Source of the DNA: a virus
Reading direction: 5' to 3' (one strand)
IMG/VR virus record: IMGVR_UViG_3300049811_000255
Location: 1-25,833 of that record
DNA length: 25,833 nt
Shown in pieces: positions 22,146 to 25,459 of this stretch. How positions within the stretch are numbered: position 1 is the stretch's first letter; each line of letters starts with the position of its first letter. A program made the position numbers and the translations under genes. The notes under the pieces were generated by a model. The model worked only from the letters and a program-made list of their open reading frames with translations. It searched no databases and was not told where the DNA came from.

Positions 22146-22390
22146 ACGACCAATCTGAAATCGGCGTCCTGGAGCTGGTCGCCAGCGCGGTGCTGGGCGC
22201 CATCGTGTGGCTGATCGCGCGCGCCACGGGCGCGCACCTGGACAGCATGCGCGAGCTGGGCACCAAGCTGGAGGATCTCAGAGCCGAGGTGGTCGCCCTG
22301 CGCTCGGAGCTGCGCAGCGTCAGCGAGCGCCAGAGCGCGACCGAGCGCCGGGTGGAGCGTCTGGAGCAAGAGGAGCGCGCGCGCCCATGA
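22142..22390 (+). CDS. Small membrane protein with coiled coil (lysis module)
   Basis: This 82-residue protein starts at GTG 22142. A single membrane helix (VLELVASAVLGAIVWLIAR, about 9-27) is followed by a charged coiled coil (LDSMRELGTKLEDLRAEVVALRSELRSVSERQSATERRVERLEQEE). The layout, one N-terminal anchor plus a coiled coil, fits an inner-membrane spanin or a small holin-like protein, and the gene overlaps the endolysin start by ATGA. No lipobox partner was seen, so the spanin idea is weak. Confidence 0.6.
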   Translation: MNDQSEIGVLELVASAVLGAIVWLIARATGAHLDSMRELGTKLEDLRAEVVALRSELRSVSERQSATERRVERLEQEERARP

Positions 22391-23562
22391 TGCGCCTGAC
22401 GCCAGCGCTGCTGCAGGCCACCACCGGCTGCACGCCTGAGCTGGCGCAGCGCTACGCGTACCCGCTGGAGGTCGCGTGCCAGCACTACGGCATCACCACG
22501 CCGCGGCGGCTGGCCCACTTCCTGGCGCAGATCGGTCACGAGAGCGGCAGCCTGCGCCACGCGCGCGAGATCTGGGGACCCACGCCCGTGCAGCTGCGCT
22601 ACGAGGGCCGCGCGGACCTGGGCAACGTGCAGCCGGGCGACGGCGAGCGCTACCGCGGCCGCGGGCTCATCCAGACCACCGGGCGCAGCAACTACCGCCG
22701 CGCGGCGCAGCGCCTGCGCGACCGCGGCGCGCCCGACTTCGAAACCCAGCCCGAGCTGCTGGAGCTGCCCGAGTGGGCCGCGTGGAGCGCGGCCGACTAC
22801 TGGGCCATGCGCAGCATCAACGCCGCGGCCGACGCCGACGACCTGCTGCGCGTGACGCGCCTGGTCAACGGCGGGCTCAACGGCCTGCAGGACCGCCAGC
22901 GCCGCCTGGCGCAGGCCAAGGCCGTGCTGCTGCCGGCGCCTGGCGAGCCGCCCGCCGCGGCACCCAGCCCCCCACCCCTGGCCGCTGCCGCGCCGGCGCC
23001 GGCCGCCGCACCACCACAGGAGACCACCATGCCGCTGCCCGCCTTTGTCGCCGCCGCGCTGCCCGCCATCGTCCAGGCCGTACCCAAGCTGGGGCGGTTG
23101 TTCGGCAGCGGCAGCGACGTGGCCGAGCGCAACGTGCGCGCGGCCGAGCTGGCCGTGCAGATCGTCCAGCAGGCCACCGGCGCGCCCAACGCCCAGGCTG
23201 CGGCCGAGGCCGTGGCCGCCGACCCGGCGCTGGCCGCGGAGGCCGCGCGCGCCATCGAGCAGCGCTGGCTGGAGCTGGACGAGGCGGGCGGCGGCGGCAT
23301 CGCCGGCGCGCGCGCGGCCGACGCCGCGGCACGGCGCTCGCCCGACGGGCTGTGGCGCTCGCCCAGCTTCGTGGTGGCGCTGGGCCTGCTGCCCATGGTC
23401 TACATGGTCCTGGTGAGCATCCTCTTCGGCCTGGGGCCGGACTGGCCCAGCGACGTGCGCGCGGCGATCGCCACGGCGGTGGTCAGCAGCGTGCTGGGGG
23501 GGCTGCTCGGGTACTACTTCGGCCAGACCACCAGCCGCAACAGGACGGCCGCGGAGCGGTGA
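22387..23562 (+). CDS. GH19-type endolysin fused to a holin-like membrane domain
   Basis: This 391-residue protein has three parts. Residues 1-180 are a GH19/chitinase-like endolysin: HFLAQIGHESGSLRHAREIW gives the probable catalytic E52 and E61, YRGRGLIQTTGRSNYRRAA is the substrate-cleft motif, and VTRLVNGGLNGLQDRQRRL closes the domain. Residues 183-214 are a Pro/Ala linker. Residues 215-391 contain helices and two membrane segments (about 328-348 and 358-378), resembling phage 3TM holins. Endolysins degrade peptidoglycan and normally need a separate holin; here the two are in one frame. An internal ATG at 23029 with AGGAGA at 23018-23023 could also give the membrane part alone. Confidence 0.85.
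   Translation: MMRLTPALLQATTGCTPELAQRYAYPLEVACQHYGITTPRRLAHFLAQIGHESGSLRHAREIWGPTPVQLRYEGRADLGNVQPGDGERYRGRGLIQTTGRSNYRRAAQRLRDRGAPDFETQPELLELPEWAAWSAADYWAMRSINAAADADDLLRVTRLVNGGLNGLQDRQRRLAQAKAVLLPAPGEPPAAAPSPPPLAAAAPAPAAAPPQETTMPLPAFVAAALPAIVQAVPKLGRLFGSGSDVAERNVRAAELAVQIVQQATGAPNAQAAAEAVAADPALAAEAARAIEQRWLELDEAGGGGIAGARAADAAARRSPDGLWRSPSFVVALGLLPMVYMVLVSILFGLGPDWPSDVRAAIATAVVSSVLGGLLGYYFGQTTSRNRTAAER
23029..23562 (+). CDS. Possible internal translation product: holin-like protein
   Basis: The ATG at 23029 is in frame inside the endolysin gene and has AGGAGA five bases upstream. It would give a 177-residue protein beginning MPLPAFVAAALPAIVQAVPKLG. Its central helical part (VAERNVRAAELAVQIVQQ, ...AIEQRWLELDEAG) and two C-terminal membrane helices are the parts seen as a separate gene in related phages. 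If used, the phage makes both a membrane-bound endolysin fusion and a free holin. Alternatively the fusion arose by loss of a stop between adjacent genes. Confidence 0.5.
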   Translation: MPLPAFVAAALPAIVQAVPKLGRLFGSGSDVAERNVRAAELAVQIVQQATGAPNAQAAAEAVAADPALAAEAARAIEQRWLELDEAGGGGIAGARAADAAARRSPDGLWRSPSFVVALGLLPMVYMVLVSILFGLGPDWPSDVRAAIATAVVSSVLGGLLGYYFGQTTSRNRTAAER

Positions 23563-23578: not shown

Positions 23579-23639
23579 TTCTAACGTCGCGCGCCCATCG
23601 TAGGGCGCAGCCGGTGGATAACTCGTCCGCGCGTTAGAT
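23579..23639 (-). other. attC-like recombination site 1 (degenerate)
   Basis: On the minus strand the site runs from ATCTAAC (23639-23633, fits RYYYAAC) to GTTAGAA (23585-23579, GTTRRRY except the last base), 61 nt. The outer arms pair, and an inner hairpin GCGCCC/GGGCGC lies between them. It contains the 3' end of the truncated integrase frame. It is the weakest of the four sites and marks the boundary with the convergent lysis gene. Confidence 0.55.
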
Positions 23640-23922
23640 GCAATGGGCCGGATCGCCGCGCCGTTGCTGGATTCAGCGGGTGCGTCTTGGCAGCGTGCCT
23701 GGGCATCACGTCGCGCTGCCAGGCGGCGCAGACGGCCGGCATGCGGTCGTCGGCCACGTCGCCGGCCAGCAAGGCCGCTAGGGCGGCGTACATGGCCGGC
23801 AGGCCGTCGCGCGTGGCCGACAGCCGCACCCACACGCGGCGCTTGCCCTCGGCGCGCACGAGGTAGTAGCTGGCGCCCTTGGCAAAGACTCGCGGCGGCA
23901 GGTGGTGGTCGCGCTTGGGCAT
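23581..23922 (-). pseudogene. Truncated phage tyrosine integrase, N-terminal fragment in a cassette
   Basis: This 113-residue frame starts MPKRDHHLPPRVFAKGASYY and continues VWVRLSATRDGLPAMYAALAAL and MPAVCAAWQRDVMPRHAAKTH. This is the N-terminal arm-binding part of Burkholderiales-type phage integrases, which are normally about 310-330 residues. After AAKTH the homology stops; the remaining residues are encoded by the attC-like site 1 and end at TAG. The core-binding domain and the catalytic R...HxxR...Y residues are absent, so it cannot recombine DNA. The start lies 8 bases after the upstream attC end, without a clear Shine-Dalgarno. It appears to be an integrase 5' end captured as a gene cassette. 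Confidence 0.7.
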
Positions 23923-23929
23923 GGGTGGA

Positions 23930-23982
23930 GCCTAACGGGTCATGGACCGGGCGCCTTGGCGCCGGTCATGTGGTGTTTAGGC
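23930..23982 (-). other. attC-like recombination site 2
   Basis: Minus strand, 53 nt: GCCTAAA (23982-23976, R'' with last base changed) to GTTAGGC (23936-23930, perfect R'). The inner arms form a strong hairpin centred on GGCGCC-AA-GGCGCC, extended by CATG and GACC pairs with unpaired bases. The stop codon TAA of the upstream gene lies in the R'' box, as is common in gene cassettes. Confidence 0.75.
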
Positions 23983-24429
23983 CCCAATCCCATGCAGCCG
24001 CTCAAGGTCGCGCACGCACCGCTCAAATGCGTCCACCTCCTCGCGCAGCAGGCTGCTTAGCGGGTAGTGCTCGGTCATCACGGCGTCGATCTGCTCGCGT
24101 GTCAGCGGCTGGCGTGGCTTGGCAAAGCGCTCAGCAGCCTTCAGTTCGCGTCTGAGTCGATCAATGTCCTCGCGCATCCGCGTGCGGCCTTTCGTCAGCC
24201 CGTCCCGGGCGTATTGCAGGTCGCGCTTCAGCGCCGCGTTCTCGGCCTCAAGCGCTGCCAGCCGCTCTGCAGTAAGCGGAAACCACTTCGCCAAGCTGCT
24301 GTCTTCGCGCCACTGTCGGCCTATCTCGGCATCCTTGCAGTCGCACGGCAGGTATACCGGCTCGCCCCACGGGTGCGTTCCGCCGCTGTCGCGTTCTCCG
24401 GTGTCGTTGCACTCAGGGCATGTCGTCAT
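23977..24429 (-). CDS. Cassette gene: zinc-binding/coiled-coil phage-type protein
   Basis: This 150-residue protein starts MTTCPECNDTGERDSGG. C4, C7, C29 and C31 form a probable zinc site (CPEC ... PCDC). A coiled coil follows (about 55-100: LAALEAENAALKRDLQYARDG..., MREDIDRLRRELKAAERF), then a C-terminal helical part (LTREQIDAVMTEHYPLSSLLREEVDAFERCVRDLERLHGI). The last part resembles small accessory proteins of GC-rich phages. GGAGGA precedes the start. It shares a cassette with the 49-residue gene upstream (17-bp overlap), and its TAA lies in attC-like site 2. Function unknown. Confidence 0.7.
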   Translation of the reverse strand: MTTCPECNDTGERDSGGTHPWGEPVYLPCDCKDAEIGRQWREDSSLAKWFPLTAERLAALEAENAALKRDLQYARDGLTKGRTRMREDIDRLRRELKAAERFAKPRQPLTREQIDAVMTEHYPLSSLLREEVDAFERCVRDLERLHGIGA

Positions 24430-24562
24430 CGTCTTCCTCCGCGTGGTCGTCAAGGTCGAACACTTCTCCGCAGGCTGCGCAACGCTGCAGCCGGTCGTCC
24501 TGCGGGCCATCTTCGTCGTCGTACTCGTACACGGTCTTGCAACCGCACTTAGGACATGCCAT
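24413..24562 (-). CDS. Cassette gene: 49-residue acidic zinc-ribbon protein
   Basis: This small gene encodes 49 residues starting MACPKCGCKT. CPKC (3-6) with C8 and a second pair CAAC (28-31) form a zinc ribbon, and the end is strongly acidic (LDDHAEEDDDDMP). GGAG lies about nine bases upstream of the ATG at 24562. The start is 26 bases after attC-like site 3, as expected for the first gene of a cassette, and it overlaps the next cassette gene. Two zinc proteins in one cassette is notable. Function is not known. Confidence 0.65.
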   Translation of the reverse strand: MACPKCGCKTVYEYDDEDGPQDDRLQRCAACGEVFDLDDHAEEDDDDMP

Positions 24563-24587
24563 CGTCTGCGCGCTCCGGTTGGTTGGG

Positions 24588-24639
24588 GCCTAACACTTCG
24601 TTCCAGCCGACCTACGGCGGCTGAACTCGGGCGTTAGGC
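24588..24639 (-). other. attC-like recombination site 3 (best match)
   Basis: Minus strand, 52 nt: perfect R'' GCCTAAC (24639-24633) and perfect R' GTTAGGC (24594-24588). Inside, GCCCG-AGTTCAGCC and GGCTGGAAC-GAAGT give the paired L boxes with the usual mismatches, and a short CGTAGG loop region. The layout and several bases match the classical aadA-type attC family closely. Confidence 0.9.
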
Positions 24640-25115
24640 GTCTTCAGGTTCGCCAGCGCCCATGCGCGCATCTGGCTCCAGCGAATGGCGCCGGCCTGCT
24701 CGTTCCACGTCCAGCGCAGTTGCGTGTGGCTTTCCCACGGGCGCATCGGGCCGCATACCGTGAAGTTGAAGGCCGTCTGATCCTGCGGTCCTTCTTCGTC
24801 GTTCAGGTACATGATTTCGGCCGCCATCGCCTCCGCAACGCCGAAAGCCTTTGCAACCGCCTCGCGGTCTTCCGGGTCAATGGGCGCCATGTCCATGCCG
24901 CGCGCACGGCCCAGCGCGCCCAGCGTGCAGTATTCGCCGTCCGCCGTCACCAGCGAGCCGGCCGCCAAGCGTTTCTCGGGCAGCGCGTCCAGCGCCTGCA
25001 CCAGCTCGCGCAGCATCGCCTGGCCTCGCGCTCCACTGATTGCCTTCTTCACTGCGCCGCGCCACCGGATAAGCGCCCATCCATCGCATTCGTCGCTGTA
25101 GCCGCTCCTGCTCAT
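24612..25115 (-). CDS. Cassette gene: phage-type hypothetical protein (167 aa)
   Basis: This 167-residue protein starts MSRSGYSDECDGWALIRWRG with AGGTGGAG upstream. GARGQAMLRELVQALDALPEKRLAAGSL, DGEYCTLGALGRARGMDM, VAKAFGVAEAMAAEIMYLNDE and WERTHTQL-like end (SHTQLRWTWN) follow. This is a family widespread in prophages and phages of Burkholderiales and related groups, of unknown function. The last residues (NARVQPP) are encoded by attC-like site 3, and the stop lies inside it. The phage-type gene as an integron-style cassette is the unusual point. Confidence 0.75.
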   Translation of the reverse strand: MSRSGYSDECDGWALIRWRGAVKKAISGARGQAMLRELVQALDALPEKRLAAGSLVTADGEYCTLGALGRARGMDMAPIDPEDREAVAKAFGVAEAMAAEIMYLNDEEGPQDQTAFNFTVCGPMRPWESHTQLRWTWNEQAGAIRWSQMRAWALANLKTPNARVQPP

Positions 25116-25149
25116 CGCACTCCACCTTTCTTTGCTTCGTCCACCGGCC

Positions 25150-25206
25150 GCCCAACACGCAATTCAAGCCGACGCCTGACGGCGCGGCTTAATTGCAACG
25201 TTGTGC
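25150..25206 (-). other. attC-like recombination site 4
   Basis: Minus strand, 57 nt: GCACAAC (25206-25200, R'' with one deviation) to GTTGGGC (25156-25150, fits GTTRRRY). The inner arms TTAAGCCGCGCCG and GGCGTCGGCTTGAA are the classical attC core with short loop TCA. It begins just after the stop of the 83-residue gene, the usual spacing for a cassette. Confidence 0.85.
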
Positions 25207-25207
25207 T

Positions 25208-25459
25208 TCACGCGGCGCTCGGGAGATCTGGCGCCTTCTTGCCGTGTTCTGCCTGCCAGTCGCGCATCCGCCGCGCGTGGTGCATCGCCATGCTGCCCAT
25301 CTCGGGCGCGTTGCCCTCGCGCAGCACCAGCGATGCCCAGAACGCCACCACCTCGGGTGCGTGCTTGTCCTGCGCCCGCAGTAAGAATACGGGTTCGTCG
25401 GCCGGAATCTTGCCGGCCGGGTCTTGGATGCGGTTGTAGTCGTCGCGTGCGTGAAGCAT
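25208..25459 (-). CDS. Cassette gene: phage-type hypothetical protein (83 aa)
   Basis: This 83-residue protein starts MLHARDDYNRIQDPAGKIP, then DEPVFLLRAQDKHAPEVVAFWASLVLREG and MAMHHARRMRDWQAEHGKK. The phrase YNRIQDPA...DEPVFLLRAQD is shared by a family of small phage and prophage proteins. The function is unknown. GAGGAA precedes the ATG. The TGA lies directly before attC-like site 4. It is the first cassette of the array on this strand; the insertion boundary upstream is unclear. Confidence 0.75.
   Translation of the reverse strand: MLHARDDYNRIQDPAGKIPADEPVFLLRAQDKHAPEVVAFWASLVLREGNAPEMGSMAMHHARRMRDWQAEHGKKAPDLPSAA

Follow-up and report, generated by a model that had tools for sequence, protein, structure and literature searches.

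The region beyond the endolysin gene of a virus record of 25,833 nucleotides (the window, by which we mean the whole stretch analysed) is very probably an integron cassette array without an integrase, adapted to phage and read from a phage operon rather than from Pc; recombination and expression are the parts of this reading that we infer. The window is a tailed phage genome. Terminase, portal, major capsid and endolysin genes were identified by PHROG matches, and terminase and capsid by Pfam matches as well. No integron integrase (IntI) was detected, with 0 TIGR02249 matches in the whole record, and an Rfam search of the window gave 0 matches. The initial annotation had proposed an integrase-less integron-type array in a tailed-phage genome, and two secure attC sites, the lack of IntI and the phage structural genes bear this out. 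It had also taken the contents for ordinary gene cassettes; the array is indeed bounded by attC sites, but its genes run antisense to them, so it is not of the ordinary bacterial kind.

attC sites and cassettes of the window

The features of the region, in window coordinates, are as follows.
22387-23562, + strand: endolysin gene of the left flank, matching PHROG endolysin families (best 1.5e-67), convergent with the array
23580-23637, strand not assigned: S1, not accepted as attC, with inverted TTCTAAC/GTTAGAT boxes only
23581-23922, - strand: 113-aa ORF between S1 and S2, not IntI but what is left of the N-terminal part of a phage tyrosine integrase
23930-23982, + strand: S2, a probable degenerate attC (R'' GCCTAAC 23930-23936; R' GTTTAGGC 23975-23982)
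23976-24633, - strand: cassette C2, bounded by R' of S2 and R' of S3; two small genes called by a codon model at about 23977-24429 and 24413-24532
24588-24639, + strand: attC S3 (R'' GCCTAAC 24588-24594; R' GTTAGGC 24633-24639)
24634-25200, - strand: cassette C3, bounded by R' of S3 and R' of S4; one gene, 24612-25115
25150-25206, + strand: attC S4 (R'' GCCCAAC 25150-25156; R' GTTGTGC 25200-25206)
25208-25459, - strand: 83-aa phage gene of the right flank, abutting R' of S4

Sites were scored with two models: R1, a covariance model built from 10 class 1 cassette attC sites on plasmids, to which the window contributed nothing and which was run over the whole window with filters off, and R2, whose training set consisted of attC sites from other phages plus a small number of prophages. 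S3 and S4 are secure attC sites, well above chance. On the + strand, R1 gave 60.1 bits (E 1.2e-16) for S3 and 38.0 bits (E 1.4e-9) for S4, which R2 scored at 54.0. Their bottom strands outfolded 200 of 200 dinucleotide shuffles (z -5.7 for S4), with fold energies, bottom versus top, of -15.4 versus -13.8 for S3 and -21.4 versus -18.5 for S4. The attC box plan (inverted R''/R' and L''/L', with GTTRRRY at R') is full in S3, including the perfect GCCTAAC/GTTAGGC boxes already noted in the initial annotation; it shows one R' deviation in S4 (GTTGTGC), is weak in S2 and comprises the R boxes only in S1. An attC covariance-model search and predicted bottom-strand folding were the checks that the annotation had named, with the absence of a model match as grounds for giving up the idea; S3 and S4 came through both, so those grounds fall away for these two.

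The count of four attC-like sites held in part. S2 is probably an attC site: R1 gave 10.3 bits (E 1.1), which is noise level, and R2 gave 19.1 bits, with E 5e-4 over 3.5 kb and 0.04 over 307 kb and a preference for the + strand. S1 was rejected; R1 gave no match and R2 gave 7.4 bits on a partial stretch, although inverted CTAACG/CGTTAG boxes are present. A strict box heuristic failed to pick up S1 and S2. S3 and S4, 562 bases apart in a record with no TIGR02249 match, make the region a CALIN, which takes at least two attC sites with no IntI nearby.

Both secure sites recur in other phages. S3 is identical at 52 of 52 positions in phage contigs L034, L056 and L084 and is identical in G001, G020 and G044, while 40-57 nt of S4 are the same or nearly the same as attC in G024, G034, G004 and G029. 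With its flank, S3 is identical over 72 nt in G044, where the neighbours differ from those of the window and a homologue of the window endolysin gene adjoins the array. Positions 24426-24639 (about 220 nt) are 88% identical to phage contig G009, and the match stops exactly at R' of S3; the close match found elsewhere for C2 thus covers part of the cassette only.

A DNA search of phage records with the window found similarity mainly to the lysin. Homologues of the 83-aa flank gene were found in 15 viral loci, none of which has an accepted attC, weak matches in L003 excepted. Relatives by terminase (L018-L033) gave no attC but one weak match, in stretches that may stop short of the lysis/early junction and so do not establish that the site is empty there; among the relatives of the window phage that were examined, none with an empty site came to light. 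The 113-aa ORF shares 42.6% identity over 61 aa with an integrase at L282:12363-13352, which matches PHROG integrase families. The phage may have lost lysogeny, or may have captured this integrase fragment along with the array.

Orientation of cassette genes relative to attC

In the initial annotation the top strand of attC was taken to be the minus strand, and the gene stops were placed at or within R''; both points were overturned. R1 scored S3 at 60.1 bits on the + strand versus 14.9 on the - strand, and S4 at 38.0 versus 20.2, and together with the lower bottom-strand energies these scores give the strand asymmetry expected of attC. R'' was placed on the left and R' on the right from the L boxes, whose extrahelical base, on the + strand, falls in the left half (CAGCCGAC...GCGGCTGAA), as it does in the aadA1 site adjoining its gene. 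With S3 and S4 read on the + strand, therefore, the minus-strand genes end at or past R', not R'', and run antisense to attC. This is the reverse of a normal cassette, in which the gene is sense to attC and stops at or before R''. All genes called by the codon model from 23581 to the right end of the window are on the minus strand. That these minus-strand ORFs are true genes, as the annotation had supposed, follows from the codon-model calls and from the homology of the C3 gene, which encodes 167 aa similar to phrog_25637/DUF6197 (E 6e-42), is also called by the codon model, and has its stop inside S3, beyond the crossover point.

Gene strand was then compared across viral and bacterial arrays. 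Viral contigs were scanned with an exact pattern for aadA-type attC, which returned 57 loci; these scans require exact L boxes, so that counts are not frequencies and the viral sample is no census. Many viral loci were extended to longer stretches or whole contigs before the array scan. The strand count covers 23 viral contigs with arrays, the window included, with two double-array contigs trimmed and one left out, and used a home-made gene caller whose calls were checked by homology. Within the viral array spans, 118-129 genes were antisense versus 1-4 sense, according to which of three codon models was used. By the longest ORF of each cassette, a measure free of any model, 71 viral cassettes were antisense versus 18 sense. 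Longest ORFs also served for the bacterial control because codon models call few genes in bacterial cassettes. Integrons in genomes of the order of G051, a Burkholderiales MAG described below, gave 36 sense versus 4 antisense (of 40), and other bacterial loci, taken from among the matches listed by the pattern scan, gave 34 sense versus 3 antisense (of 37). This coarse measure separated the two orientations less clearly in the small set of viral arrays with IntI (15 to 9).

Homology agreed with the gene calls: 72 antisense ORFs of the viral arrays match 44 PHROG and 13 Pfam families, whereas 66 sense ORFs of the same arrays match 0 PHROG families and 1 Pfam family. Called antisense genes that stop inside the R' box numbered 36 in the viral set (112 attC sites) versus 1 in the bacterial set (70 sites). 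The antisense cases in bacterial loci are concentrated in L177, L207 and L157, all of which adjoin phage-type genes, and some loci of the viral set are sense integrons (L075), which were used as a contrast. Contigs L108 (G005) and L125 (G016) hold two arrays apiece, opposite to one another in attC polarity, and in every one of them the genes are antisense to their own attC.

Cassette exchange and integron integrases in related phages

Segments common to different viral contigs repeatedly end at R'. G020 shares one stretch of 676 nt with G016 and one of 680 nt with G018, at 88-91% identity, with no further stretch of at least 60 nt at 80% identity in the stretches compared. The cassette common to all three carries a gene matching Acb2/Tad1 (PF24729), and the G020 protein matches the phage Acb2 structures PDB 8h2j and 8ixz almost end to end. 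Acb2 acts against CBASS, which makes the gene of this cassette a candidate mobile anti-CBASS gene. In the numbering by locus, the Acb2/Tad1 cassette is seen at L101:5814-6098, again in L125 (G016) and L126, and in part in L117.

Cassettes also differ between close relatives. G059 and G060 show 98-99.9% identity across most of the array and the flanking sequence and, among other differences, one whole cassette is present in G060 only and two in G059 only. At 3 of 3 junctions examined between them, identity switches inside the YAAC core of the R' box, the location of the IntI crossover. Such exact gain and loss of cassettes between near-identical phages points to recombination, in relatives rather than in the window phage itself; the contigs are metagenomic, and chimeras are possible. 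The idea in the initial annotation that the array would be a vehicle between hosts was therefore an understatement, since phages pass the same sites and cassettes among themselves, and relatives have an IntI of their own.

In a prophage of the Burkholderiales MAG (L177/L282), the early operon includes an IntI gene with antisense cassettes alongside. With TIGR02249 (curated cut-off 265), relatives of this IntI in viral contigs G054-G063 reach 450-482 bits, and genomes of this type, where checked, carry phage terminase, head-tail adaptor or tail genes. In the contigs for which gene layout was drawn up, the phage IntI genes lie between early and lysis genes, and a phage integrase distinct from IntI is often present too. 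The arrays adjoining them hold 30 antisense versus 1 sense genes. The window, lacking IntI, is not a complete integron; IntI and array are both present in relatives G056, G057, G059, G060 and G063. Phage contig G006 begins with an IntI adjoining antisense cassettes, one of which matches phrog_5086, and its placement in the IntI tree is less sure owing to branch lengths. The orientation of intI relative to attC in phage arrays is canonical, and the genes alone are flipped. The active-site Arg, His and Tyr expected of a tyrosine recombinase are invariant in three aligned IntI sequences. No LexA-like box with at least 7 of 8 matches was found upstream of intI in 7 of the 8 phage genes examined.

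In the tree, 11 phage IntI rows form one clade (support 99/94) among bacterial IntI. The IntI of L267 falls outside this clade, among bacterial IntI, and yet its array is antisense (L267/L285). At least one further acquisition of IntI by phages is likely from this placement, and L267/L285 suggests an independent origin of the same antisense layout. More distant IntI-like integrases occur in viral contigs L269-L272 (36-38% identity); those scored (G064-G066) are slightly over the TIGR02249 cut-off. An enrichment-culture virus record, L353 (Virus Rctr41k, KX853513), has an IntI-like protein (40% identity) within a same-strand gene run.

Of 300 genomes from the order of G051, which may or may not include the host of the window phage, 113 have an IntI over the cut-off; a host search in 399 genomes of this order yielded one distant terminase only. 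A second IntI (G051:C93, L281) lies on another contig of the MAG with the prophage IntI, and R2 finds no attC nearby.

Proposed mechanism and relation to known integrons

We propose, as a moderately probable general account, that phages evolved integrons of their own, with a phage IntI lineage and inverted-gene cassettes that would be expressed by the phage operon and would serve the exchange of counter-defence and accessory genes, the attC bottom strand being the exposed non-template strand. In the window, cassettes bounded by true attC lie at the end of the probable minus-strand early operon, beside the lysis genes. IntI would fold the attC bottom strand and recombine it at R', so that single cassettes are inserted or removed. 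For the window, IntI would come from elsewhere, that is, from a co-infecting phage, from a part of the genome missing from the contig, or from the host. Transcription would run from the early operon toward the lysis genes and, where present, intI; with the operon running in this direction, only antisense genes would be expressed without Pc. As a side effect the attC bottom strand would be the non-template strand, and a boost to recombination from this is speculation. The cargo consists of accessory phage genes, in relatives with counter-defence genes among them, and the phage may benefit from it.

The window array may be decaying, as IntI is missing and no more than two sites are secure, with a marginal third. 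A rival reading, in which an ancestor acquired the cassettes by IntI-type recombination and the array is now immobile, is unlikely. In its favour, the record is without IntI, S2 is degenerate and S1 unsupported, and the adjoining integrase gene is truncated. Set against it are the 72 nt around S3 that are identical in another phage with different neighbours, the full or nearly full boxes of S3 and S4 and the strong folds of their bottom strands.

Chance capture of ordinary bacterial cassettes with sense genes is very improbable. Phage TJE1 does have sense ORFs beside an attC match (PMC9892861), but the window genes are antisense, in line with the 118-129 others counted in viral arrays and unlike the sense genes of bacterial arrays, and this already refutes the strand part of the idea. 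The least probable of the readings, that the palindromes resemble attC only and are in fact mRNA hairpins or transcription terminators that close the genes, would account for their location at gene 3' ends and for good folding on both strands. It is largely refuted by the attC model matches with clear strand asymmetry, by shared segments and cassette indels whose ends fall precisely at R', and by the IntI adjoining related arrays.

The preferred reading, an integrase-less, phage-adapted array, has published precedents in part. Phage CALINs as such are already published (PMC9892861): Qi et al. 2023 reported 17 among 10,705 genomes and found that 5 of 6 phage attC sites tested recombine with attI1 via IntI1. 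TJE1, PH101 and P12002L of that study resemble the window in having attC clusters without IntI in tailed-phage genomes; for PH101, we obtained no attC model match in the 45 kb searched. The ORFs of TJE1, which we checked, are sense to its attC, whereas those of the window are all antisense, and the study describes neither a phage IntI lineage nor a shared phage cassette pool. It also lists complete prophage integrons (Vibrio anguillarum p16, Shewanella M16-3, E. coli P1), which are alike in having IntI, attI and attC in phage or prophage records but are described mostly as host or plasmid segments carried by phage. The phage IntI reported here lies instead between phage early genes and phage integrase or lysis genes, forms an 11-row clade and accompanies antisense cassettes. 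Class 1 and chromosomal integrons share with the phage type the attC structure, the R' crossover, the TIGR02249 family and an intI divergent to attC polarity; they differ in that their genes are sense and read from Pc, whereas in the phage type the genes are antisense and belong to a phage operon whose direction intI shares. In bacteria, recombination at R' orients the cassette gene toward Pc, and sense genes read from Pc are stated as the rule (PMC8946536). Among the open-licence papers searched, we found none that reports a phage IntI lineage or cassette arrays with antisense genes.

Phage genomes are mosaic, and small accessory genes, those for anti-defence included, come and go among phages that are closely related. 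Part of this traffic would gain a concrete mechanism if phages possessed a site-specific cassette system dedicated to it. Gene orientation along attC polarity would then prove to be a rule of bacterial integrons, which are expressed from Pc, and not one of recombination itself.
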